Positions 3,662-22,990 of a stretch of 64,000 bases of DNA are shown here, in pieces; position 1 is the stretch's first letter; every line of letters starts with the position of its first letter. The notes under the pieces were generated by a model. That model had not been told where the DNA came from. It ran no database searches and saw nothing but the letters and a program-made list of their open reading frames with translations. This DNA is from an uncultured Eggerthellaceae bacterium (GTDB lineage: Bacteria; Actinomycetota; Coriobacteriia; Coriobacteriales; Eggerthellaceae). Both the position numbers and the translations under genes were made by a program. The stretch spans positions 1 to 64,000 of the forward strand of contig CAIFEG010000007.1 of assembly GCA_903789415.1 (NCBI GenBank), written 5' to 3'.

Positions 3662-5455
3662 TTGGAACGCAATTTAAATGAACATATGACGCATAGCACA
3701 CAGAATCCGAACATGGCGCGTAGGGTCAATGTACCTGAAGTTTCTGCGCCTTCGGAGTCTTTTGTAAATGCATCATCAGCTGAAGTATCACATTCTTCCG
3801 GGGTATCTGTTCAAGAGCCGTGGGAGGCCAATCGGCCAAAGCCAACGAATCCGACGCGTCCGTTCGAATCGTTTAGCCGGAGCTCATCCTATCCTGGAGT
3901 TTCATCAACTGCGCGCACATCGCGCCATTATTATCAGCCAACCGATAGCGGAAAGACGTCACGTCAAGAAACGTCGTCCGATGGTGACGTTGCAGCGCCC
4001 AGTCAAGGGATAACACCTGACCAAGGAGCGGCGTTTAATGGAGGCGCTGCGACATCCGATCAAGGCGTAGCAGCATCGGGGCAAATGCGGAACGCACAGC
4101 AGGCATATCATGCGCGCGGCGAAGCGCAAACGCGACAATTTGATCAGCCACGGTATGCGGGCCGGCATGCTTCGAGGGCGCAAACGCAACGCTCAAATGA
4201 TCAAGCGAATAATGCCGCATATGGTGGTGGTTACCCACAAACAAACGCACCGGCGAACGGGCAAATTAACGGTGCACAATATTCACCTGCTACGGTCATG
4301 CAGGGAGACAATGCGCAAAATGGATATCTGAATCCTGCATATGATGCGTTTGATGATCTTCACCATGACAGAGTGGTAGTTGTAGAGGAACACAAGAAAA
4401 AAGAATCCGAGAAGGGCGTTTTTACTGATCTGTCTATGCCGCAGGTCATTGCAGGTGCGCTTGCCGCGGTCACATCGCTTTTGCTTTCAAACGTCATCGG
4501 TCTTGCGGGATCTGTTATCGGTGTTGCTGTTGCATCCATCGTTTCAACGGTTTCATCGCAGGCATATAAGCATTTCTTGGCAAAGTCTGCCGAAAATATT
4601 AAGTCCCACGTCCATAACGAGGATGACTCAAATAAAGAGTGGGAAGAGAATATCGAAAATGGCACCGCTGCACGGCCTATCCCTGGTGCGGCAGCTACGA
4701 ACACCGAATCTCGAGTTGCGACCCGTCAAATGCAGGCGACGCGCGCTACAGCGACGCCGCATTTGGGTGATAAGGGCGCGATGACGCAAGCGGGCATTGA
4801 TAAACGTGCTTCACGCATCAAGAAAACAAAGGTTCAGCGTGGAGTGATTATCATTTCTATCATTTCCGCACTGCTCGCGGTTGTGGTCTATGCGGTATTT
4901 ATCAATGTGGCAACGCAGGGTCAGGGCGTCGGAACAAAAACACCTTCCATTATTTCTACCGATACATCGAATAGTCAGTTATCGTCGAACAGATCAAATC
5001 AAAGCGAACCGACAACCCAGCGGCCAGAATCAGAAAATAATGCTGCTGAAAATAATGCTAATACCCAAAATCAAAATGCGAATAATGAGCAGAATGCACA
5101 GAACAATGCGTCAACAAACAACTCGGAGAATAACGAGAGCAGCACAAGTTCTTCTCAAAACCAAAGCGGAACAGGTGAGAGTACTACCACTAATAGCGGA
5201 AGCTCGTCTACGGGGTCAGGAACCTCGGGATCGCAGAGCCAATCAAGCTCGCAGAACTCAAATTCCTCCTCGAATAGCTCAAGCGGATCCGGAACGGGAA
5301 CTTCTGGCAACTCGGGATCCACGTCAAACAACTCGTCGAGCTCGAATGGATCGGGGTCGAATAGTTCTTCATCGTCAAATAATTCAACGAGCAACGGAAC
5401 ATCGAACGGATCCAATTCATCGAATGGGTCTTCTTCAGCCACACAAACGCAGTAG
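3662..5455 (+). CDS. Membrane protein with Ser/Asn/Gly-rich low-complexity tail
   Basis: Not recognised as a characterised family. Residues 1 to about 255 are polar and disordered (Gln, Ala, Ser, Pro, Asn). A hydrophobic, glycine-spaced stretch at about 260-305 (from DLSMPQVIAGALAAV to VASIVSTVSSQAY) could be a membrane hairpin. A clear single membrane helix near 395-420 begins VIIISIISALLAVVVYAV. The final ~170 residues are almost only Ser, Asn, Gly, Gln and Thr, without a sortase motif. With the basic RIKKTKVQR just before the helix, the tail is predicted to be outside the cell. The start is TTG with AGGGG at 3650-3654; ATG at 3686 is an alternative. The downstream terminator suggests a single-gene unit. 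Confidence 0.75.
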   Translation: MERNLNEHMTHSTQNPNMARRVNVPEVSAPSESFVNASSAEVSHSSGVSVQEPWEANRPKPTNPTRPFESFSRSSSYPGVSSTARTSRHYYQPTDSGKTSRQETSSDGDVAAPSQGITPDQGAAFNGGAATSDQGVAASGQMRNAQQAYHARGEAQTRQFDQPRYAGRHASRAQTQRSNDQANNAAYGGGYPQTNAPANGQINGAQYSPATVMQGDNAQNGYLNPAYDAFDDLHHDRVVVVEEHKKKESEKGVFTDLSMPQVIAGALAAVTSLLLSNVIGLAGSVIGVAVASIVSTVSSQAYKHFLAKSAENIKSHVHNEDDSNKEWEENIENGTAARPIPGAAATNTESRVATRQMQATRATATPHLGDKGAMTQAGIDKRASRIKKTKVQRGVIIISIISALLAVVVYAVFINVATQGQGVGTKTPSIISTDTSNSQLSSNRSNQSEPTTQRPESENNAAENNANTQNQNANNEQNAQNNASTNNSENNESSTSSSQNQSGTGESTTTNSGSSSTGSGTSGSQSQSSSQNSNSSSNSSSGSGTGTSGNSGSTSNNSSSSNGSGSNSSSSSNNSTSNGTSNGSNSSNGSSSATQTQ

Positions 5456-5617: not shown

Positions 5618-7618
5618 TTACCGCTGAACGAGCTGCTTGATCATGCTTCCGTGTTTTTTCTCGAAGCCAAGACGTCTAAACGTTTCGCGCATCCCACAGG
5701 CGCAATTAACCTGTACTTCGGCGCACCCCAAACCTGCTGCTTCACTGCATGCGCGATCAACAAGTGCAATAAAGAGCCGTTTCCCCAGCGTAGGTGCCTG
5801 ATTTTGATCTTCCCCAGGGAAATCCTCGAACAGGGGGTCTTCATCGTCAAACACTTGAACCTCGCGTAACAATGCCGTTTGATGTGCGGGTTTTTCATTC
5901 GAACTATCGGACTGAGAAGCGTCTGTTTCAGCGGCGTTTCTTTGAGCTTTGCAAGAGGCAAGCATAGGTGTCGTAAGAGAAGAATCGGCCATGGGTACCG
6001 AAAGCCGCGCAAACCCCACAAGCTTATTATCAGGCGTGGTCCACTGGATAAAACGCTCCTCGGATGTTGTTTGCTGCGGAGTTCTCGTTTGATATGAAAT
6101 CACATCAAGGTGAAGATTATCTTCGGAGACCTCAGACAAGCGTATTGAACGCTCACGCATTTCGTCAGAATGCTCATGGTTTTCTTTGATTACCTGCTGA
6201 ACGTTTTGGCGCAGATTGATTTTTTTATTGCCCACTTCGATGTCGGTAGAGGGAATATCGCGAATCATCCGCGAAACACGGATATAGGGTGGCGTAATCA
6301 TCAGGTCGTATTTCAGCACGTCAATTAGCTGATCATGGGTATAGGGGCGCCACGCATCCCGCTCCCACAAGCGATAGAGCCCCGTACCGCGAACAAGTGC
6401 GCACGGGTAAAGTTTTATTTCATCCGGTTTGAATTGCGGATCTTCAACCAGACGTTTGTAGCCCGCCTTATCAATTTCTGGTGTTGATTGGTACAAGTTT
6501 GCCATAAAGTGTGCGTGAAGCTTCAATCCATAGCTTCTGACAAGCGAGAAGGCTTCAGAGATGGCATCAACGCTTGCATGCCGGGAATTGACCGACAAAA
6601 CATGCGGATCCAGGCTCTGAACACCAAGTTGCACACGTGTGACGCCGAGTGAGCGCATGAATGCAAGATTTTCGTCGCTCACACGCTCGGGGCGTGTTTC
6701 AACCGAAAGCCCCACGCATTGGTGCTTGGATGTTTCGTTGGAATCTTGCTCGGAAAATAATTCCTCGGGCGAGCATGTTTGCCACGCGGAAACTTCTGCC
6801 CATCCTCCTGTTTTGTAGAGTGCTTCAACGGCTTGGTTGAAATCCACCGTGGCATTGTCTACGCGCGCCTGTTCAAATGCACAGCGGCGTGCAATCTCTG
6901 TACGATCTTCCGTGATCCCTGCCTGGTGATACGCTTCAATACGCGCCTCGCGATGTGCCGCGCGATCTTCGGCAACATCGTTTAAGGCACGAAACATTTC
7001 TTTGCAAAACCACGCACGATACGCAGCAGGGTAGTCATCCCATGTGCCCCCGAGCACGATCAGTTCTACCTTATTGGTTCGGTGTCCCATTGACTCCAGT
7101 ACCGAAAGACGCGATGTTACCTGCAAATATGGGTCGAACATGTTGAGCTCGGCCCGCTGACATGCAGGTTCATCGTGTAAATAGCTTTTTGGCATGCGAA
7201 CATCGCGCGGGCAAAACAAACATCCGCCACCGCACATCCAGGGTTTGGTGAGCACCGTTACCGTCGCCACTCCGTTTGACGTGCGCGAGGGCTTCATTCG
7301 CAAGGTCAAAATAAGTTGATGTTCCAGATCGCGATCGATATTCCACGAGTTCCAAAGTTCCTGATTGGTGCCGCGCACGTATGCGTAGTAGGGAAGAAGC
7401 ATTTTCTTCGCGCGTGCATGCACCGACTTTGGAAGCGTGCGGTTGTACGCGCGAATCGTATGGTCAAGTGTGTTTGCATCAAGCGGGCCATTGTTGCGCA
7501 CGCGTTCGATGATGTGCTCAAGGATTTCCTGGGTATAGGCATCATCGGCTTGCGGATGATACATCTTCTCTGCAACGGTGTGTTTTTGGGGTTCGATGTC
7601 GTTCATGTCGGTTTTCAT
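5618..7618 (-). CDS. elp3: Elp3-like tRNA U34 radical SAM/GNAT enzyme
   Basis: A 666-residue homologue of Elp3, which attaches a carboxymethyl-type group to C5 of wobble uridine in tRNA using a radical-SAM domain and an acetyl-CoA-binding GNAT domain. The iron-sulfur cysteines appear as CGGGCLFC (C-x3-C-x2-C) near residue 130, shorter than the C-x9-C-x2-C of eukaryotic Elp3. Family blocks follow: FDPYLQ, KVELIVLGGTWDDYP, SVETRPERV, QLGVQSLD, LKLHAHFMANL, IKLYPCALVRGTGLY. The GNAT part begins around LVGFARL and ends RRLGFEKKHGSMIKQL. Its acetyl-CoA loop (QAPTLGK) and the usual YYRKLGY tyrosines are degenerate. About 45 acidic/polar residues are inserted inside the GNAT domain. Start ATG 7618 has GGA five bases upstream; TTG 7627 is possible. 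It is divergent from a Trm9-like methyltransferase. Confidence 0.85.
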   Translation of the reverse strand: MKTDMNDIEPQKHTVAEKMYHPQADDAYTQEILEHIIERVRNNGPLDANTLDHTIRAYNRTLPKSVHARAKKMLLPYYAYVRGTNQELWNSWNIDRDLEHQLILTLRMKPSRTSNGVATVTVLTKPWMCGGGCLFCPRDVRMPKSYLHDEPACQRAELNMFDPYLQVTSRLSVLESMGHRTNKVELIVLGGTWDDYPAAYRAWFCKEMFRALNDVAEDRAAHREARIEAYHQAGITEDRTEIARRCAFEQARVDNATVDFNQAVEALYKTGGWAEVSAWQTCSPEELFSEQDSNETSKHQCVGLSVETRPERVSDENLAFMRSLGVTRVQLGVQSLDPHVLSVNSRHASVDAISEAFSLVRSYGLKLHAHFMANLYQSTPEIDKAGYKRLVEDPQFKPDEIKLYPCALVRGTGLYRLWERDAWRPYTHDQLIDVLKYDLMITPPYIRVSRMIRDIPSTDIEVGNKKINLRQNVQQVIKENHEHSDEMRERSIRLSEVSEDNLHLDVISYQTRTPQQTTSEERFIQWTTPDNKLVGFARLSVPMADSSLTTPMLASCKAQRNAAETDASQSDSSNEKPAHQTALLREVQVFDDEDPLFEDFPGEDQNQAPTLGKRLFIALVDRACSEAAGLGCAEVQVNCACGMRETFRRLGFEKKHGSMIKQLVQR

Positions 7619-7635
7619 ATTTTCCAATTTTATAC

Positions 7636-7641
7636 GATAAT
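7636..7641 (+). promoter_or_regulatory. -10 box for a leaderless Trm9-like gene
   Basis: GATAAT ends eight bases before the ATG at 7650. No Shine-Dalgarno sequence lies between them, so transcription would begin at or within two bases of the start codon. No good -35 is visible. Confidence 0.4.
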
Positions 7642-7649
7642 CAAAATCT

Positions 7650-8543
7650 ATGAGTGTCTCTCAACATACCGCACGTATCTTAATCGAGCTCAACCGCGAT
7701 TTTTATCGTCGTGTGGCCCGTTCATTCTCTCAGACGCGCCATAGTGTTTGGCCAGGGCAGGCACATTGTGCACAGATTATCTATACCAATTCAGAGAACC
7801 GCGATCGCTCGGATTGCACTCCCGTGCGCGTTTTGGACGTGGCAAGCGGAAATGCGCGTTTTGAGCAGCTTTTGGGCCAAGGCGCCCCACATATGCAATT
7901 CGAATGTGTTGCCGCAGATGTATCTTCGGGGATGTCTGACGCGCATCTCGATATTCCGTCAAACGTACAGGTAACATTCGAACAAGTCGATTTTATGGCT
8001 CCGTTTCTTGACGAACATGGGGGTGGGGATAGCGAGATTGCCCGTTTCAGCAACTCCTGCCAAGAAACGGCACCTTTTGATGCATGTGTATGCTTCGGGT
8101 TTTTCCATCACATACCCATCCAGTCATGGCGCAAGCAGCTTCTTGCGTGTATGTGCGAGGCGGTGTCGAAGAAAGCAGAGCAAACACGCAACGCATCTCA
8201 AACAGGTACACCAAATTCCGTAACCGCTCATTCAGCGGGGGTAGTTGCAATATCGCTCTGGCGATTTCTAGATGATCCAAAAATGGCCGCACGTGCACAA
8301 AAGGCAACGGAACGCGCATTCGATCTGCATGTAGGTGGGCTTTCCCCAGAAAATCTTGGTCCAAACGATCGCTTTTTAAGCTGGCAAGGGAAAGATGTTT
8401 TTCGCTATTGCCACAGCTTTACCGATGAGGAAGTTTCCGATCTTGCGAGTGTCTGTCCGGCTAACATGAAGGCCGAGCGATTCTTCAGTGATGGGAAAAG
8501 TGGCAAGCTCAACGAATATCTCGTTTTTGTTCCGCGAGATTAG
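7650..8543 (+). CDS. Trm9/ALKBH8-like tRNA wobble-uridine methyltransferase
   Basis: A 297-residue class I SAM-dependent methyltransferase. The N-terminal motif YRRVARSFSQTRHSVWP matches the FSxTRxxxWP signature of the Trm9/ALKBH8 methyltransferase domain, which converts 5-carboxymethyluridine at tRNA position 34 to its methyl ester (mcm5U). SAM-binding motif I is VLDVASGNARF near residue 57. Motif IV is FDACVCFGFFHHIP, where Trm9 also has a paired His-His. The C-terminal blocks ISLWRFLDD and RFLSW...FRYCHSFTDEEVSDL resemble the Trm9 tail. It lies 31 bases from the Elp3-like gene in divergent orientation, which strengthens the assignment. Small insertions (a Ser-Gly rich loop and a Gln/Asn stretch) enlarge it. 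The substrate is inferred, not shown. Confidence 0.7.
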   Translation: MSVSQHTARILIELNRDFYRRVARSFSQTRHSVWPGQAHCAQIIYTNSENRDRSDCTPVRVLDVASGNARFEQLLGQGAPHMQFECVAADVSSGMSDAHLDIPSNVQVTFEQVDFMAPFLDEHGGGDSEIARFSNSCQETAPFDACVCFGFFHHIPIQSWRKQLLACMCEAVSKKAEQTRNASQTGTPNSVTAHSAGVVAISLWRFLDDPKMAARAQKATERAFDLHVGGLSPENLGPNDRFLSWQGKDVFRYCHSFTDEEVSDLASVCPANMKAERFFSDGKSGKLNEYLVFVPRD

Positions 8544-15599: not shown

Positions 15600-16505
15600 T
15601 TAATCAGTCTCTGGTCCGTTAAAGATAGGAATAACCGCTCCGTTGTAGTTGCTGTTGATGAAGTCGCGCGTCTGATCAGACTGCAGTGCCTGAATGAGAG
15701 CCTGGATCTTTGGAGAATCCTGGTCTCCGTTGCGCACTGCAACGATATTTGCATATCTGCTTGCAGCGTCAGAATTTGCATCTTCGGTCGCAACAATCAG
15801 GTCATTGGACAGATTTGCTGAAATTGCATAGTTACGATTGATCACAGCAAAATTGCAATCTTCAAGCTGGCGAGGAAGCGCTGCGGCTTCTGCCTCGACT
15901 AATTGAATGTTATGAGGATTGTCGGTAATGTCGTTGGCGGTAGCCTCAAGACCGGCACCTTGGCGAAGCGTAATGACGCCATTCGCCTCGAGTAAGTTCA
16001 GCGCACGTGCCTCGTTTGTTGGGTCTGACGGAACAGCGATTTTTGCACCATCGGGGACGTTTTCGAGATCGTTAGAGCTGCCGGCATATACCGCGAGCGG
16101 CTCGAAGTGGACAGAACCTACAGAAACGAGGTCGGTTCCATTTTCCTGGTTGTAGTTTTCCAGGTAGGGGGTGTGCTGATAGAAGTTTGCGTCGATTTCG
16201 CCATTTGCAAGGGCTTCATCTGGTGTGACGTAATCGCTGTACTCAACAACGTTGAGCGTATATCCCTCGTTGGCCAAGGTATCTGAAATATTGTTTAAGA
16301 TCTCTGCATGAGGAGTCGGTGAGGCGCCCACAGTAATGGTTGTGTCATCGCTCGATGAGCTGCTGGTTCCGCTGGTTGAGCTGCTCGAGTTGCTTGAGCT
16401 GTTTGAACCGCATCCGGCAAGTGCAAATGCGCAGAGCGCAGCAACGAGCCCGATGCAAATTGCCAAAATTAGTTTTCTATTTTGAGAATGATTTGTGCGT
16501 TCCAT
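15600..16505 (-). CDS. metQ: MetQ/NlpA methionine-binding lipoprotein
   Basis: A 301-residue lipoprotein of the NlpA family that captures methionine for MetNI. Signal peptide residues are followed by the lipobox LAGC near residue 32 and a Ser/Asn-rich linker. The binding domain has VGASPTPHAEIL, VVEYSDYVTPDEALANGEID, ANFYQHTPYLENYN and PSDPTNEARALNLLE, all typical of MetQ. Unusually, the order here is metN-metI-metQ with metQ last. The Ser/Asn linker resembles that of the amino-acid-binding lipoprotein encoded just downstream on the same strand. Confidence 0.94.
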   Translation of the reverse strand: MERTNHSQNRKLILAICIGLVAALCAFALAGCGSNSSSNSSSSTSGTSSSSSDDTTITVGASPTPHAEILNNISDTLANEGYTLNVVEYSDYVTPDEALANGEIDANFYQHTPYLENYNQENGTDLVSVGSVHFEPLAVYAGSSNDLENVPDGAKIAVPSDPTNEARALNLLEANGVITLRQGAGLEATANDITDNPHNIQLVEAEAAALPRQLEDCNFAVINRNYAISANLSNDLIVATEDANSDAASRYANIVAVRNGDQDSPKIQALIQALQSDQTRDFINSNYNGAVIPIFNGPETD

Positions 16506-16559
16506 TGTTTGTCCTCCCAGTTAATGTACGTAGTTATTTCTTTTATTGATTTAAATTGT

Positions 16560-17237
16560 TTATCGATTTCTTTTATCTATTCTGCGTGCCCAGTGGGTAC
16601 CGACGCTTTGTACGATTTGAACCAAAATGATCAGTATGATGATGGTCGCGAACATGACGTCATTTTGATACCGCTGATATCCATAGCGAATTGCGATATC
16701 GCCGAGGCCGCCGCCGCCAACGGTGCCAGCCATTGCGGAATATCCGAAGATCGTGATAAAGGTGATGGCTCCTCCGCGAATGAGCGAAGGCAAGCTTTCC
16801 TTTAGATACACCTTGTAGACGATCTGCCATGTGGATGACCCAAAACTTTGAGCTGCTTCTATGAGTCCGCCATTTACTTCTTGCAAACTTTGCTCGACCA
16901 TACGAGCAACAAACGGAGCTGCAGAAACAACCAGCGGAACAATCGCTCCCGGTACACCGAGTGACGTTCCGACAATCCATCGCGTAAACGGAATCAACGC
17001 AACTAACAAGATGATGAACGGGATAGAACGTCCAATGTTAACGATCCAGCCCAACACCGTGTTGAAAATGCGATGCGGATGAAGCCCGTCGGGGTTCGTC
17101 ACGACGACAAGCACACCTAAAGGAATTCCAATTACATAAGCAAGCGCCGTAGAAACAAAGGTCATGACGATCGTTGCCCATGTTCCCTGCGCTAAAAGCG
17201 TGCCGTACTGGTTAAAAAATGCCTGTAAGTATTCCAT
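16560..17237 (-). CDS. metI: MetI methionine ABC permease
   Basis: A 225-residue inner-membrane permease with about five membrane helices. The family block NIGRSIPFIILLVALIPFTR lies near residue 66 and the ATPase-coupling loop EAAQSFGSSTWQIV near 127, followed by GYSAMAGTVGGGGLGDIAIRYGYQRY, a MetI hallmark. The start codon follows the metN stop directly, with no spacer, so the two are translationally coupled. Confidence 0.95.
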   Translation of the reverse strand: MEYLQAFFNQYGTLLAQGTWATIVMTFVSTALAYVIGIPLGVLVVVTNPDGLHPHRIFNTVLGWIVNIGRSIPFIILLVALIPFTRWIVGTSLGVPGAIVPLVVSAAPFVARMVEQSLQEVNGGLIEAAQSFGSSTWQIVYKVYLKESLPSLIRGGAITFITIFGYSAMAGTVGGGGLGDIAIRYGYQRYQNDVMFATIIILIILVQIVQSVGTHWARRIDKRNR

Positions 17238-17999
17238 TTATGCCAGCGCCTTTCCTTCCATATCCAGAAGTTCACGCGTGACTTTTGCTTGAGGATGTGC
17301 AAACACATCATGTGTTTTCCCTTGCTCAACAATCTTGCCATCGTCGATGACGGCGATTCGGTTGCAAATCGAATTAGCGACCGCAAGCGAATGGGTGATG
17401 AACACAATCGTTACGCCCAGTTCCTTATTGATGCGTTTAAGCAGATTCAAGATGGTATTTGTGGTCATCGTATCAAGAGCACTGGTCGCTTCATCGCAAA
17501 GCATTATTGATGGAGCGGTTGAGAGTGCACGCGCGATGGCAACACGCTGCTGTTGGCCTCCGGAAAGTTGAGAAGGGTACAACTTCTCTTTGTCCGAGAG
17601 ACCCACCATGCTTAAAAGCTTGCGCGCACGTGCTTCGCGTGCGTCTTTTGCTTCGCCGGCAACTTCCAACGGATACGTGACATTCTGCAGCACGGAACGC
17701 TGTGCAAACAGGTTGAAGTTTTGGAAAACCATTCCAATACCTCGGCGAAGTTGCACGAGTTGCTTTCCGCTGTAGTTGGTAACGTCGGTTCCGTTGATAA
17801 TAACTTTGCCCGAAGTAGGCTTTTCAAGCAGGTTAATGCAGCGAACTAACGTAGACTTACCTGCGCCACTTTCGCCAATGATGCCAAACGTATCGCCGTC
17901 TTCTACCGTGAACGAAACATCTTTGAGCACATGATGCTCGTGATGTTCGCCATGTTCGACGTGATCGAAGGTTTTAGTAATATGCTCAAGTTGAATCAT
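17238..17999 (-). CDS. metN: MetN methionine ABC transporter ATPase
   Basis: A 253-residue ATPase of the methionine uptake system. Walker A is GESGAGKST near residue 40, Q-loop [10 protein letters not shown], signature LSGGQQQR, Walker B IMLCDEATSALD, switch His in ITHSLA. A His-rich insert (HVEHGEHHEHH) sits near residue 14. The C-terminal ACT-like regulatory domain of about 90 residues that gives substrate inhibition in E. coli MetN is absent. ATG 17999 (MIQLEHITK) fits the domain start. An in-frame GTG at 18053 lies in the loop of a leader hairpin and lacks a binding site, so it is less likely. Confidence 0.92.
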   Translation of the reverse strand: MIQLEHITKTFDHVEHGEHHEHHVLKDVSFTVEDGDTFGIIGESGAGKSTLVRCINLLEKPTSGKVIINGTDVTNYSGKQLVQLRRGIGMVFQNFNLFAQRSVLQNVTYPLEVAGEAKDAREARARKLLSMVGLSDKEKLYPSQLSGGQQQRVAIARALSTAPSIMLCDEATSALDTMTTNTILNLLKRINKELGVTIVFITHSLAVANSICNRIAVIDDGKIVEQGKTHDVFAHPQAKVTRELLDMEGKALA

Positions 18000-18300: not shown

Positions 18301-18357
18301 TTGCTACTTTGCCGTACATTTCCTGCTTTGCCGTATGTGGTGCTGCTCTGCTTACTT
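18301..18357 (-). repeat. 3 x 19 bp degenerate repeats at an MFS-CBS stop codon
   Basis: Units at 18301-18319 and 18320-18338 share CTTTGCCGTA. The third, more degenerate unit at 18339-18357 contains the stop codon of the MFS-CBS gene. Confidence 0.65.
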
Positions 18358-20379
18358 GCTTGCCTGATCGCTCTGCATAGGTTGTGTACCGAGGGACTCG
18401 TGGGACTCTTCGGCTTTCTTTTGTAGTTGATCGGTGACATAACTCATTGAAGCACGAATAATATCGCTTCGGCTTACGGTTCCGATTAATTTATTGTCGT
18501 CATCGACAACAGGAACTTTTTTAATGCGATTCGTTGCAAGCAAGCGGCTTACCATTCCGACGGATTCGTCGGGAGAAATTGAAATGACGTGTTTGGTGGC
18601 AATCGTCATAACATTGAGCTTGAGCAGATCTTCCACGCGTGACGAAAAATCTTCGTCATCGGCAATCTGATATCCATATTTTCCGCTTAGTAACTCATAG
18701 TCTTTGTCGCCTAAGTATTTCATGACGTCGCCATCACTGATAAACCCCACGACATGGTGGTCGTCATCGACGACGGGAAGGCCGCTCGTCTCATCTTTGA
18801 TAAACAGCTGGGCGACGTTGCCGACGGTGTCATGCTCGTTGACGGTGTAGGTACGATCGTGCATGAATTCTTTTGCAGGAATATTTTTCATGGTTGCATC
18901 AATCACGTGGGTAACGGAATCGGGGGCCTTTATTGCTGCGTTAGCCTGGACGGTGGATGGTGCGGCAGTTTCGGTAGGCGTCTTTGCAGCGCGTGAAGGT
19001 TGTGCCTTCTTGTCCGTTACAAATTTCATTGCCAAGATAATCGTAATCATTGAAACGACAGCCACAAGAGCCAGGGTAATCTGATATCCGAGAGCATTTT
19101 GCTCCCATTCGCCTGCTTGCGGAATAATTGCAGTGCCTATGTTTGACACTGAAACAAACAATGCCGTTCCAAACGCCGCTGCTACTTGATTCAAGGTATT
19201 TTGCAGCGGTGTTGCATGCTGAATTGCACTGTTGGGAAGAGAATTAAATCCCCAGGTGCTGATGGGTGTAAGCGAAATGCAGATCCCAAATTCCATGAGG
19301 GTAAAGATCAGCGTTACGTAGATAACGCTCGCATTTCCATCGAAGAAAAACATCAAAAAGCCGCCGATGAATACCGTCGGGGCGAATCGCATGATGATCT
19401 TGTGTGCCCCGATGCGATCGTATGCACGGCCGCTGTACAGCGATGCAAAGGCTGACGCTACCGAGCAGGGGACCATCACCAAGCCTGCTATGGTTGCGCT
19501 CTGTCCCAAAACATTTTGCAAATAAAGGGTCATGATGGTATCGCCACCAATGAAAATGGCTTCGCACAGCATACAGATACCCACATCGATGGCGAAGTTT
19601 CTGGTTTTTAATAGATTCACCCGAAGCATGGGCTCAGAAAGCCCGTCTTGTCTGCGCACAAATAAGTAGACAAAGAATGCGCCCACGACAATTGCACAGA
19701 AGGTAATAACCAGGTTGCTTCCCGACGAGATATTCGAGATGCCCCAAAGTATTCCACCTAAACCGATTGTGCTGAAAACAACCGAGCGGAAATCAAAATG
19801 GGAGCGTGCAAACTGGTGTTCCCAATGAAGGAAAATGATGGCCGCAACGGCAATAATCAACGAAACGATCGTGATAATGATAAACGACTCGCGCCATCCC
19901 ATGGTGTCGGTGAGGTACCCGCCGAGCGCAGGACCAACCGCAGGCGCAATGCCAATGATCAGGGATACGAGCCCCATGGCGCTTCCACGGCTTTCGCGAG
20001 GAAAAATGGTTAAAATGGCCGCCATGCTCATGGGCATCAAGATGCCTGTACCACATGCTTCAGCGACACGGCCAACTAAAAGCCAGGTAAACGATGGCGA
20101 AAACGCACATAATGCCGTTCCCGCGGCATACAAAAGCATCGTCGTAATAAAAATTTTCCTGACACGTGTCAGTCCCATGACGAATGCGGAAAGGGGAATG
20201 ACGATGGCTTCGGTTAAAGAGTAGATTGAAATGGTCCACTGAACCGTCGTGCGAGATATATCCATGTCTCGCATGATTGAAGGAAGTGCTGGTGAAAGAA
20301 GCGTCTGATTGAGCACTACCAGCATCGATCCTGCAAGAAGTACGACTACGGTCGAAATCTGTTGTTTAGTGAGTCCCAT
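18352..20379 (-). CDS. DHA2-type MFS transporter fused to a CBS pair (copy 1)
   Basis: A 675-residue protein. Residues 1 to about 475 are an EmrB/QacA-like drug:proton MFS transporter: VVLNQTLLSPALPSIM in helix 1, motif A-like loop GLTRVRKIFI, motif C-like GIAPAVGPALGGYL, and about 14 membrane helices. An Ala/Pro/Thr linker leads to two CBS domains. CBS1 (about 515-575) has SGLPVVDDDHHVVGFISDGDVM, and CBS2 (about 600-655) has IKKVPVVDDDNKLIGTVSRSDII. Both keep the G-h-h-S-x-x-D ribose-binding motif, so an adenine nucleotide or SAM may gate transport. Two paralogues with the same architecture lie nearby. The substrate is unknown. Confidence 0.85.
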   Translation of the reverse strand: MGLTKQQISTVVVLLAGSMLVVLNQTLLSPALPSIMRDMDISRTTVQWTISIYSLTEAIVIPLSAFVMGLTRVRKIFITTMLLYAAGTALCAFSPSFTWLLVGRVAEACGTGILMPMSMAAILTIFPRESRGSAMGLVSLIIGIAPAVGPALGGYLTDTMGWRESFIIITIVSLIIAVAAIIFLHWEHQFARSHFDFRSVVFSTIGLGGILWGISNISSGSNLVITFCAIVVGAFFVYLFVRRQDGLSEPMLRVNLLKTRNFAIDVGICMLCEAIFIGGDTIMTLYLQNVLGQSATIAGLVMVPCSVASAFASLYSGRAYDRIGAHKIIMRFAPTVFIGGFLMFFFDGNASVIYVTLIFTLMEFGICISLTPISTWGFNSLPNSAIQHATPLQNTLNQVAAAFGTALFVSVSNIGTAIIPQAGEWEQNALGYQITLALVAVVSMITIILAMKFVTDKKAQPSRAAKTPTETAAPSTVQANAAIKAPDSVTHVIDATMKNIPAKEFMHDRTYTVNEHDTVGNVAQLFIKDETSGLPVVDDDHHVVGFISDGDVMKYLGDKDYELLSGKYGYQIADDEDFSSRVEDLLKLNVMTIATKHVISISPDESVGMVSRLLATNRIKKVPVVDDDNKLIGTVSRSDIIRASMSYVTDQLQKKAEESHESLGTQPMQSDQASK

Positions 20380-20467: not shown

Positions 20468-20473
20468 TATAAT
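20468..20473 (+). promoter_or_regulatory. -10 box for nifS-mnmA
   Basis: TATAAT lies 44 bases before the nifS ATG. The hexamer at -35 spacing (TATCAA) is poor. Confidence 0.4.
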
Positions 20474-20517
20474 TGCGAAAGCAAATGCTCTTTTGCGTTA
20501 CCAATGGAGGGTCCCTC

Positions 20518-21702
20518 ATGATTTATATGGATAGTGCCGCAACGACGCCCATGTCTGATGCCGCCTTATCGGCTATGGAACCATATTGGCAACGTGAATT
20601 TGGAAATTCTCATGCGGTCTATTCGGCAGGTCAGCATGCTGCTGCGGCGATCATGGATGCGCGTAAACGGGTCGCGAAATGTTTGGGATGCACCCCCAGG
20701 CAAATTATTTTTACCTCTGGCGGAACAGAATCTGATAATCAAGCCCTTGCTTCCCTTGCGCTTCGCCGCTTGGGATCAGGCAAATCAGACGGCGGATCTG
20801 AAAACTCGGGTCTGCATGTCCGAAATAAAATCATTACGTTTCAGTTCGAGCATGCCGCAGTTCTGCGCTCGGTCGAACGCCTCTCTCAATTCGGGTTCGA
20901 TGTTGAAGTTTTGCCGGTATTTTCTGATGGAGTCGTGCAGGTAAATGAGCTTTTACCGTATCTCACCGATGACGTTCTCTGCGTTTCGATGATGATGGTA
21001 AATAACGAAGTCGGTACGATCCAACCCGTCCAAGAGGTTGCGCGTCTGTGCAAGGAGCGGGGAATTCTCTTCCATTGTGATGCGGTGCAGGCTGCGGGTC
21101 ATATTCCTATTCATATAAATGATTGGGAAATCGGGACACTTGCCATATCGGCGCATAAATTTCACGGTCCCAAAGGGGTTGGCGTGCTGGTCCATCAGCC
21201 GAATGACTACGTGGAACCGCTGATCGTAGGCGGAGGACAAGAGCGCGGGTTTCGTTCCGGGACCTCGAATACGCCTGGGGCAGTTGGTTGCGCGGCCGCG
21301 CTTGAAGAAGCCTGTGCGCATATGGAAGAGAACAGTCAGTCGCTTTGGGAAATCAATGATGTGCTACGCGCGGGCATTTTGCGCATCCCCGATTCCCGTT
21401 TAACTGGAACCGCAGATCACAGCAAGCGCGTTCCCGGTATTTTGCATTTTTGCTTTAAAGACATTGATGCCCAGACGCTTCTTATCTACCTTGATGCGCA
21501 TGGAATATGTGCATCGGCGGGGTCGGCGTGCATGGCGGGGGCCGTACAAAAAAGCAATACGCTTGTGGCAATGGGTGTCCCGGACGTGTGGGCGCGCGGA
21601 GCATTGCGCCTTTCATTTGACGCATCGATTACGCTTGAAGAAGCACATCGTGTGTGCGATGTGGTTGCCCAAGGAGTGGCGGCGCAGCGGGATCGCGCAT
21701 AG
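20518..21702 (+). CDS. nifS: Cysteine desulfurase (NifS/IscS family)
   Basis: A 394-residue PLP enzyme that takes sulfur from cysteine as an enzyme-bound persulfide for Fe-S clusters and tRNA thiolation. The N-terminus MIYMDSAATTPMSDAAL is typical. The PLP lysine is in ISAHKFHGPKGVGVL near residue 205; His of the cofactor stack is in FEHAAVLRS. The persulfide cysteine is in CASAGSACMAG near 335, and the SGTSN block precedes it. ATG 20518 has GGAGGG at 20505-20510. It lies 25 bases before mnmA, so its sulfur probably goes at least partly to tRNA 2-thiouridine. Confidence 0.94.
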   Translation: MIYMDSAATTPMSDAALSAMEPYWQREFGNSHAVYSAGQHAAAAIMDARKRVAKCLGCTPRQIIFTSGGTESDNQALASLALRRLGSGKSDGGSENSGLHVRNKIITFQFEHAAVLRSVERLSQFGFDVEVLPVFSDGVVQVNELLPYLTDDVLCVSMMMVNNEVGTIQPVQEVARLCKERGILFHCDAVQAAGHIPIHINDWEIGTLAISAHKFHGPKGVGVLVHQPNDYVEPLIVGGGQERGFRSGTSNTPGAVGCAAALEEACAHMEENSQSLWEINDVLRAGILRIPDSRLTGTADHSKRVPGILHFCFKDIDAQTLLIYLDAHGICASAGSACMAGAVQKSNTLVAMGVPDVWARGALRLSFDASITLEEAHRVCDVVAQGVAAQRDRA

Positions 21703-21727
21703 TAAGGAAACACGGATATTCAAAAAA

Positions 21728-22990
21728 ATGACTCAACCTACGTCTGTTGCAGAACATATAACGAATGAAAATACAGCGAATCTCCCCGGAAAAGGGAAAA
21801 AGGTCCTTGTCGCCATGAGCGGTGGGGTGGACTCGAGCGTTTCGCTGTGCTTGCTTCATGACAAAGGATATGAATGTGTGGGCGTGACCATGCGGCTCTA
21901 CGACAATCCGCCTGATGTCGTGAATGCGAAAACATGCTGCAGTTTATCTGATGTAGAAGATGCGAAAGCCGTCGCATACGCCATGGGCGTGCCTCATTAC
22001 ACCATGGAATGCACCGATGAGTTCGCGCGTGATGTGATCTCCCGTTTCGTTAAAGGATATGAAGCGGGAAAAACTCCGAACCCCTGCATCGATTGTAATC
22101 GGTTTTTGAAGTTTGACTTGCTGTATACACGGGCGCGTCAGCTGGGATGCGATTTTATTGCCACCGGTCATTATGCGCGCATCACCTGCGACGACGGTAT
22201 CTACCATCTGCGCCGTGGCGTGGATAGCAAGAAGGATCAAAGCTATGTCGTGAGTATGCTCTCTCAGGAAAAGCTCGCGCATACCCTTTTCCCTCTTGGT
22301 GATTTGACGAAAACACAGGTGCGCAAGATTGCCGAAGAGCATGGACTCGAAAATGCTCAAAAGCAGGAGAGCCAAGATATTTGCTTTGTTCCCAACGGCG
22401 ATTACGCGGGCTTTCTGCATTCTTATACGGGGCATAGCGATGTGCCGGGAAACTTCGTTGACATGAAGGGAAACATTCTTGGTCAACATCAAGGGCTTAT
22501 CCACTACACCATTGGCCAGCGCAAAGGTCTTGGAGTTGCGGTGGGACATCCGCTTTATGTTGTCAAAAAAGATGCGGAAAAAAATGAGGTTGTACTCGGC
22601 ACGCGTGAAGATTTAGCGCGCAAGGATTTCTTCGTTGACGATATGCATTGGACAAATACCACATCTCTTGCAGATGGCTTAGATGTCGATGCGGTCACCA
22701 GATATCGGGGGGTCCCGCATGCGGCACATGTGACGTCAGCACCTATCAATGTTCAACGCGAAGAATCCCTAACGGTAGATCAATCCATGGCAGATCAACC
22801 CACGGAAGATCAATCCGCAGAACATCAACCCGCCAAAACCAAAGAAGACAGTCAAAGCGAAATTTCGCCGCGTTCGATTCACGTGGTTTTTGACCAGCCG
22901 CAAATACAGATTGCTCCAGGTCAGACTGCAGTATTGTATAAGCCTGATGCGAAGGGTGACATTGTCTTAGGTGGGGGAATCATTCGCTAA
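21728..22990 (+). CDS. mnmA: tRNA-specific 2-thiouridylase MnmA
   Basis: A 420-residue enzyme that adenylates and thiolates U34 of tRNA-Lys, -Glu and -Gln. The PP-loop is VLVAMSGGVDSSVSL near residue 28. The two catalytic cysteines are present in TPNPCIDCNRFLKFD and QESQDICFV. The GHYAR block lies between them. The C-terminal beta-barrel carries an insertion of about 35 residues between SAPINVQ and RSIHVVFDQP. The insertion includes four tandem pentapeptides (DQSMA, DQPTE, DQSAE, HQPAK) from a 15-bp repeat. Cotranscribed with nifS. The window also encodes Elp3-like and Trm9-like proteins that would act on the same base. Confidence 0.95.
   Translation: MTQPTSVAEHITNENTANLPGKGKKVLVAMSGGVDSSVSLCLLHDKGYECVGVTMRLYDNPPDVVNAKTCCSLSDVEDAKAVAYAMGVPHYTMECTDEFARDVISRFVKGYEAGKTPNPCIDCNRFLKFDLLYTRARQLGCDFIATGHYARITCDDGIYHLRRGVDSKKDQSYVVSMLSQEKLAHTLFPLGDLTKTQVRKIAEEHGLENAQKQESQDICFVPNGDYAGFLHSYTGHSDVPGNFVDMKGNILGQHQGLIHYTIGQRKGLGVAVGHPLYVVKKDAEKNEVVLGTREDLARKDFFVDDMHWTNTTSLADGLDVDAVTRYRGVPHAAHVTSAPINVQREESLTVDQSMADQPTEDQSAEHQPAKTKEDSQSEISPRSIHVVFDQPQIQIAPGQTAVLYKPDAKGDIVLGGGIIR
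22778..22837 (+). repeat. 4 x 15 bp in-frame repeat in mnmA
   Basis: Units such as GATCAATCCATGGCA and GATCAACCCACGGAA follow each other four times in frame, coding D-Q-(S/P)-x-x pentapeptides. Confidence 0.85.

Follow-up and report, generated by a model that had tools for sequence, protein, structure and literature searches.

In a reference survey, 5-methoxycarbonylmethyluridine (mcm5U) and its 2-thiolated form (mcm5s2U) are assigned to eukaryotes, with mcm5U also assigned to archaea, and not to bacteria (PMC7694415). According to a 2017 review, no bacterial homologues of Trm112-dependent methyltransferases are detectable, and elp3 and trm9 are clustered in Sulfolobus solfataricus, which is an archaeal precedent for the gene pair described here (PMC5372719). 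A literature search found no published bacterial Elp3-Trm9 pathway, most of the subscription literature lying outside its coverage. The window analyzed in this study is a 64,000-nt stretch of contig CAIFEG010000007.1 (assembly GCA_903789415.1) from an uncultured Eggerthellaceae bacterium, and it carries an Elp3-type gene beside the gene for a Trm9-like methyltransferase. Comparative analysis indicates that this pair, apparently working without Trm112, is probably a bacterial form of the eukaryotic/archaeal-type route to mcm5(s2)U at the wobble position of tRNA (U34), where it would replace MnmE/MnmG in Coriobacteriia.

The gene for the Elp3-type radical S-adenosylmethionine (SAM)/lysine acetyltransferase (KAT) protein occupies positions 5618..7627 of the reverse strand and encodes 669 aa from a TTG start, or 666 aa from an in-frame ATG at 7618. 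The gene for the class I SAM-dependent methyltransferase (297 aa), which was recognized by family alignment and a family-profile match in the PDB, occupies 7650..8543 of the forward strand. The first-pass annotation of this DNA had placed an Elp3-type gene and a methyltransferase at 5618-8543, and this is borne out: both open reading frames (ORFs) are intact there and divergently oriented. The 31 bases that it gave between them (7619..7649) are exact when Elp3 is counted from the ATG at 7618 to the methyltransferase ATG at 7650; the gap is 22 bp from the TTG. A promoter scan of the 31-bp gap yielded promoter-like matches no more often than chance.

The distribution of the pair was investigated in 149 Coriobacteriia genomes, with Elp3 called at E<1e-50, and in a phylum sample of 346 genomes. 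Elp3 is present in 62 of the 149 Coriobacteriia genomes, and the methyltransferase is present in 61 of those 62 and nowhere else. In the phylum sample the Elp3 set and the methyltransferase set are identical, comprising 27 genomes (27/27). The Fisher p is about 1e-41 for either sample, a value that is overstated because the genomes share ancestry. Joint absences inside single genera are more telling: in one genus (g20), G044, G068 and G082 have both genes and G056 has neither, and in another (g12), G134 has both and G112 neither. A profile search of contigs revealed Elp3 in the flank of 77 of the 80 named methyltransferase loci, nearly all immediately upstream and divergent, and two of the three loci lacking it in the flank are contig ends. 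The sequence evidence as a whole supports a predicted mcm5U route in a sizeable share of Coriobacteriia and also in some deeper Actinomycetota. As to exceptions, genome G096 has Elp3 without the methyltransferase, and locus L045 has the methyltransferase with no Elp3 within 5 kb. Genome G058 contains two Trm9-like methyltransferase copies (C4:255276-256094 and C6:123764-124519), and only the C6 copy adjoins Elp3.

The usual bacterial genes, mnmE and mnmG, are both missing from the window genome, where the best MnmE match was rejected as the GTPase Der (EngA) and the best MnmG match as TrmFO. An MnmE model over cutoff was found in none of the 149 Coriobacteriia genomes, and an MnmG model over cutoff in one, which is without Elp3. 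In the phylum sample MnmG occurs in no Elp3-bearing genome, versus 62 other genomes that have it. As MnmE and MnmG are missing, the product of the pair would take the place of the MnmE/MnmG product 5-carboxymethylaminomethyluridine (cmnm5U) and would not be made alongside it. MnmA is found in 146 of the 149 Coriobacteriia genomes, and this near-universal presence in the class implies that the 2-thio group (s2) is probably still added to U34. Because the pair is present and the usual bacterial genes are lost in the class, the window organism, a gut-type actinobacterium, probably decodes mRNA with a mark so far unassigned to bacteria.

Two further observations concern this gene set. Within the class, 87 of the 149 genomes have neither the Elp3/Trm9 pair nor MnmE, nor, with one exception, MnmG, and nearly all of them keep MnmA; U34 in these genomes may carry only s2, or another C5 group, and a similar remark has been made for U34 of M. 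tuberculosis (PMC10531406). In a deep Actinomycetota family (f26), mnmG paralogues stand in tandem (for example, G166:C5:14185-15939 and 15975-17789), one of them being more divergent from the MnmG model.

Taken alone, the window methyltransferase matched generic methyltransferase Pfam models, all below gathering cutoffs; it reached no curated cutoff for UbiE or generic Methyltransf_11, matched no family in an NCBIfam scan and gave no match to PDB sequences in phmmer. Because it matched only generic models and no PDB sequence, its identity was worked out through its relatives, which form a family of 94 Coriobacteriia members. An alignment of 27 relatives contains the strongly conserved blocks FSxTR...W, D-x-x-x-GN, HH, D-x-h-h-x-W, R[YF]CH and LN.Y. 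When the profile of this alignment was searched against 177,635 PDB sequences, Yarrowia lipolytica Trm9 (5cm2_Z) came first at E 4e-6, followed by generic methyltransferases at 1.1e-4 and weaker and CmoA-type entries at 0.003; CmoM was not among the matches listed. In the phylum sample the same profile found homologues in 6 non-Coriobacteriia genomes of deep-branching Actinomycetota, and these proteins look much closer to Trm9 (FSETR..W, FIPWK, RY[YCF]HAF). Deep-branch loci showing both genes have the methyltransferase beside or near elp3. One deep-branch homologue matched 5cm2_Z best of all PDB sequences, nearly full-length, at 1.8e-18, and a yeast Trm9 query retrieved the deep-branch genes as best matches in 5 such genomes (1e-15 to 1e-21). 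The query sequence was checked by its 7.7e-71 match to 5cm2_Z and by the occurrence of R29, H115, R241, Y243 and N271 at the published positions. Profile-profile comparison of the Coriobacteriia family gave 98.3% with fungal Trm9 over 218 columns, both terminal blocks included, and 99.7% with the deep branch.

Residues R29, H115, R241, Y243 and N271 of yeast Trm9 affect tRNA affinity and catalysis, as summarized in the review from which the residue roles are taken here (PMC5372719). All Coriobacteriia-type proteins (94/94) keep the equivalents of R29, H115, R241 and N271 unchanged, and the counterparts of H116 and H244 are also conserved across the family. On the forward strand of the window, the FSQTR motif lies at 7725..7739 and its R30 corresponds to R29, for which an R29A phenotype is given in the same review; His153-His154 lies at 8106..8111, with H153 corresponding to H115; and Asn288 (8511..8513) corresponds to N271. 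Motif comparison identified DRFLSW (8367..8384), a D-x-h-h-x-W block, as the counterpart of DVFVPW in Trm9 and of DTFIPW in the deep branch. It is followed by the block R252-Y253-C254-H255 (8403..8414), in which R252 corresponds to R241 and C254 takes the Y243 position (R and H in 94/94 proteins, C in 90/94). The order D-x-h-h-x-W then R[YF]xH is found in 100 of 101 sequences, and yeast Trm9 has a long insertion there. The FSQTR...W, HH and RYCH blocks read in the first-pass annotation are thus present and are also family-conserved alignment columns; overall, the window methyltransferase retains 34 of the 35 conserved columns of its family.

Several observations weigh against the proposed mcm5U route, and they concern the placement of the methyltransferase, its departures from Trm9 and the KAT domain of Elp3. 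Besides the empty phmmer search, the window protein alone scored only 32.6% against Trm9 in the profile-profile method, below significance, and a yeast Trm9 search of the window genome did not recover it. At the level of sequence, its link to Trm9 is transitive, running through the deep-branch Actinomycetota homologues. A predicted structural model (mean predicted local distance difference test score, pLDDT, 89.9) gave 443 Foldseek matches at E<=0.001, generic methyltransferases with template modeling (TM) scores of about 0.4, and Trm9 was not singled out, being absent from the best 50 of the 443. The generic O-methyltransferases in this search, the purely generic Methyltransf_11/12/25 Pfam matches and the weak UbiG/RquA matches of some members, far from specific, would suit a conventional UbiE/UbiG/RquA-type enzyme that methylates quinones or other small molecules and stands beside elp3 by chance. 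Such an enzyme is highly improbable in view of its almost complete co-occurrence and joint loss with Elp3 and of the Trm9-specific N- and C-terminal blocks conserved outside the SAM core; the conservation of the pair by itself makes a chance neighbour unlikely.

The departures from Trm9 are two. The Y243 position is Cys in 90 of the 94 Coriobacteriia-type proteins, and it varies between Y, F and C among the deep-branch homologues. Trm112 (PF03966), which Trm9/ALKBH8 needs, was not found in the window genome (96% complete), in a search that matched PF03966 in 8 of 14 control genomes, archaeal controls among them, and that a very short divergent protein could escape. Both departures would be expected if the methyltransferase acted on the Elp3 product or on the wobble uridine to give something other than the mcm5 ester, such as the ester of a further-processed carboxylate or a methyl group at another position of the modified base, and the strong coupling to Elp3 demands merely a shared pathway. 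A product of this kind is nevertheless quite unlikely, as the counterparts of R29, H115, R241, N271, H116 and H244 are all conserved in the family. Moreover, the remaining architecture is shared by the deep-branch relatives whichever of these three residues they have at the Y243 position, so this position tolerates change.

The window Elp3 passes the TIGR01211 model (354.8 bits, curated cutoff 350), contains Radical_SAM and Radical_SAM_C domains and is matched by PDB Elp3 chains at E 1e-72. Its [4Fe-4S] motif CGGGCLFC (7211..7234, reverse strand) supplies Cys132, Cys136 and Cys139, which are invariant in every aligned Elp3. By alignment, K405 and Y407 (6407..6415, reverse strand) correspond to K302 and Y304 of M. 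infernus Elp3 in the acetate/U34 site of the radical SAM domain, and E310 corresponds to E207; all three are invariant in the aligned Elp3 sequences. In M. infernus Elp3, formation of 5-carboxymethyluridine (cm5U) requires E207, K302 and Y304, and similar amounts of cm5U are obtained with free acetate and with acetyl-CoA (PMC13315578). The first-pass label "radical-SAM/GNAT" is correct as to the Elp3 family, but it overlooked that the GNAT/KAT half is strongly eroded relative to all relatives. The protein is by family an Elp3, with a KAT (acetyl-CoA) domain that is eroded in the window species (residues 583-669; 5621..5881, reverse strand; H591Q, H611A, G613T, Y649T, Y650F and others). Fifteen of the 32 KAT positions conserved among relatives are altered, versus at most 3 in any relative, and the window species alone shows this erosion among the Elp3 relatives compared. 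The acetyl-CoA residues are lost (QHxGxG to QAPTLG, YY to TF, H to Q) where relatives keep them; E589 (the Dmc E386 position) is retained. Position 649 corresponds to M. infernus Y517, and the Y517A exchange strongly reduces or abolishes acetyl-CoA hydrolysis and reduces acetyl-CoA binding (PMC6367351).

Because the acetyl-CoA domain is eroded, the window Elp3 may use free acetate, or the pathway may be decaying or inactive in this lineage. In the latter case, which is compatible with an mcm5U route elsewhere in the class, Elp3 would neither bind acetyl-CoA nor make cm5U and the methyltransferase would be a leftover. The 15 altered KAT positions, including the Y517 and QHxGxG equivalents, speak for such decay, whereas the radical SAM domain keeps 110 of its 115 conserved positions, the E207, K302 and Y304 equivalents included, the methyltransferase is conserved in all but one of its 35 columns, the 669-aa Elp3 ORF is free of stops and frameshifts, and the M. 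infernus enzyme accepts free acetate; decay is therefore a possible but not a favoured outcome. An acetate-fed Elp3 plausibly fits an anaerobe in an acetate-rich niche. A combined scenario, in which a Trm112-free Elp3-Trm9 pair leading to mcm5(s2)U34 has taken the place of MnmE/MnmG in many Coriobacteriia and the window Elp3 runs on free acetate with a KAT domain that is only structural or tRNA-binding, is rather doubtful. Since the window Elp3 has lost its acetyl-CoA-binding residues, the mcm5U claim stands on firmer ground in the class at large than in the window genome.

In the proposed mcm5(s2)U34 pathway, the [4Fe-4S]/SAM site of Elp3 would add an acetate-derived carboxymethyl group to tRNA U34 to generate cm5U34, as expected from its family. 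Judging from its homology, the residues it conserves and its pairing with elp3, the Trm9-type methyltransferase would then methylate the carboxylate from SAM to give mcm5U34, seemingly without Trm112 (none found in the one genome searched). MnmA and a cysteine desulfurase would add s2 in Lys, Glu and Gln tRNAs to give mcm5s2U34. This Elp3-Trm9 route would stand in for MnmE/MnmG, whose absence from Coriobacteriia was seen in the searches. The genes, residues, co-occurrence and absences were thus observed, and we infer all chemical steps from them. The first-pass annotation had likewise inferred mcm5s2U and had named as checks the conservation of the pair, a profile comparison of the methyltransferase and a search for mnmE and mnmG. 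Its inference is partly supported: it holds for the pairing, for the grouping of the methyltransferase with Trm9 as opposed to UbiE, CmoM and generic families, and for the loss of MnmE/MnmG; it is weakened by the eroded window Elp3 and by the failure of the NifS/MnmA neighbourhood as evidence.

As to that neighbourhood, both genes had been reported 12 kb away, and both are confirmed at about that distance on the forward strand. The NifS/IscS-type cysteine desulfurase, a putative sulfur donor for s2U34, lies at 20473..21702 (Aminotran_5; NifS-type models below equivalog cutoffs). The ORF of MnmA, the tRNA U34 2-thiolase, lies at 21464..22990 (NF001138, 420 bits, cutoff 284), with the MnmA domain beginning near 21797. 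MnmA is within 20 kb in only 1 of 7 single-contig genomes with the pair, and that genome and two further linked genomes belong to one genus, so that linkage is confined to the window and one other genus. As the neighbourhood is not conserved, the proximity is incidental and was rejected as evidence. Elsewhere in the window, a DHA2/EmrB-type major facilitator superfamily transporter (18352-20379, reverse strand) carries a C-terminal CBS domain pair, an unusual fusion, and in a 597-aa ORF (3662-5455, forward strand), perhaps surface-exposed, an apparent membrane stretch is followed by a long C-terminal tail of low complexity that is rich in Ser, Asn, Gly and Gln.

If the mcm5U assignment is true, a complete mcm5U pathway would exist in all three domains, through a conserved pair in Actinobacteria that are common in the human gut and mouth, and it would be clear what takes the place of MnmE/MnmG across much of one bacterial class. 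Mechanistic studies would gain a Trm9 that is independent of Trm112, and the KAT-eroded Elp3 would be a natural test case for the 2026 free-acetate model. MnmE/MnmG (cmnm5U; absent here) and CmoM, which makes the ester of 5-methoxycarbonylmethoxyuridine (mcmo5U), likewise modify wobble U34, and CmoM likewise forms a carboxymethyl ester. The Elp3 of Dehalococcoides mccartyi is also a single-subunit bacterial radical SAM and KAT protein; an acetyl-CoA analogue is bound by its KAT domain, in contrast to the eroded domain of the window, and the passages of PMC6367351 consulted name no bacterial methyltransferase partner. The present findings support a known pathway type in a domain where it is unassigned, with two departures, the Cys at the Y243 position and the absence of a detected Trm112. 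In comparison with Trm9/ALKBH8, the Coriobacteriia family is bacterial, has motif I as DxASGN/DLACGN instead of DVGCGN, and includes a window sequence too divergent for direct pairwise detection. The archaeal Trm9 proteins (Haloferax HVO_0574/HVO_1032, Sulfolobus) differ in that archaeal control genomes have Trm112; they likewise accompany a stand-alone Elp3 without Elp1/2/4/5/6. Trm9 (S. cerevisiae; Y. lipolytica, 5cm2) and ALKBH8 have in common with the Coriobacteriia family the FSxTR..W motif, HH in the SAM core, D-x-h-h-x-W, R[YF]xH and the C-terminal Asn, and they share with it R29, H115, R241, N271 and the genomic dependence on Elp3.

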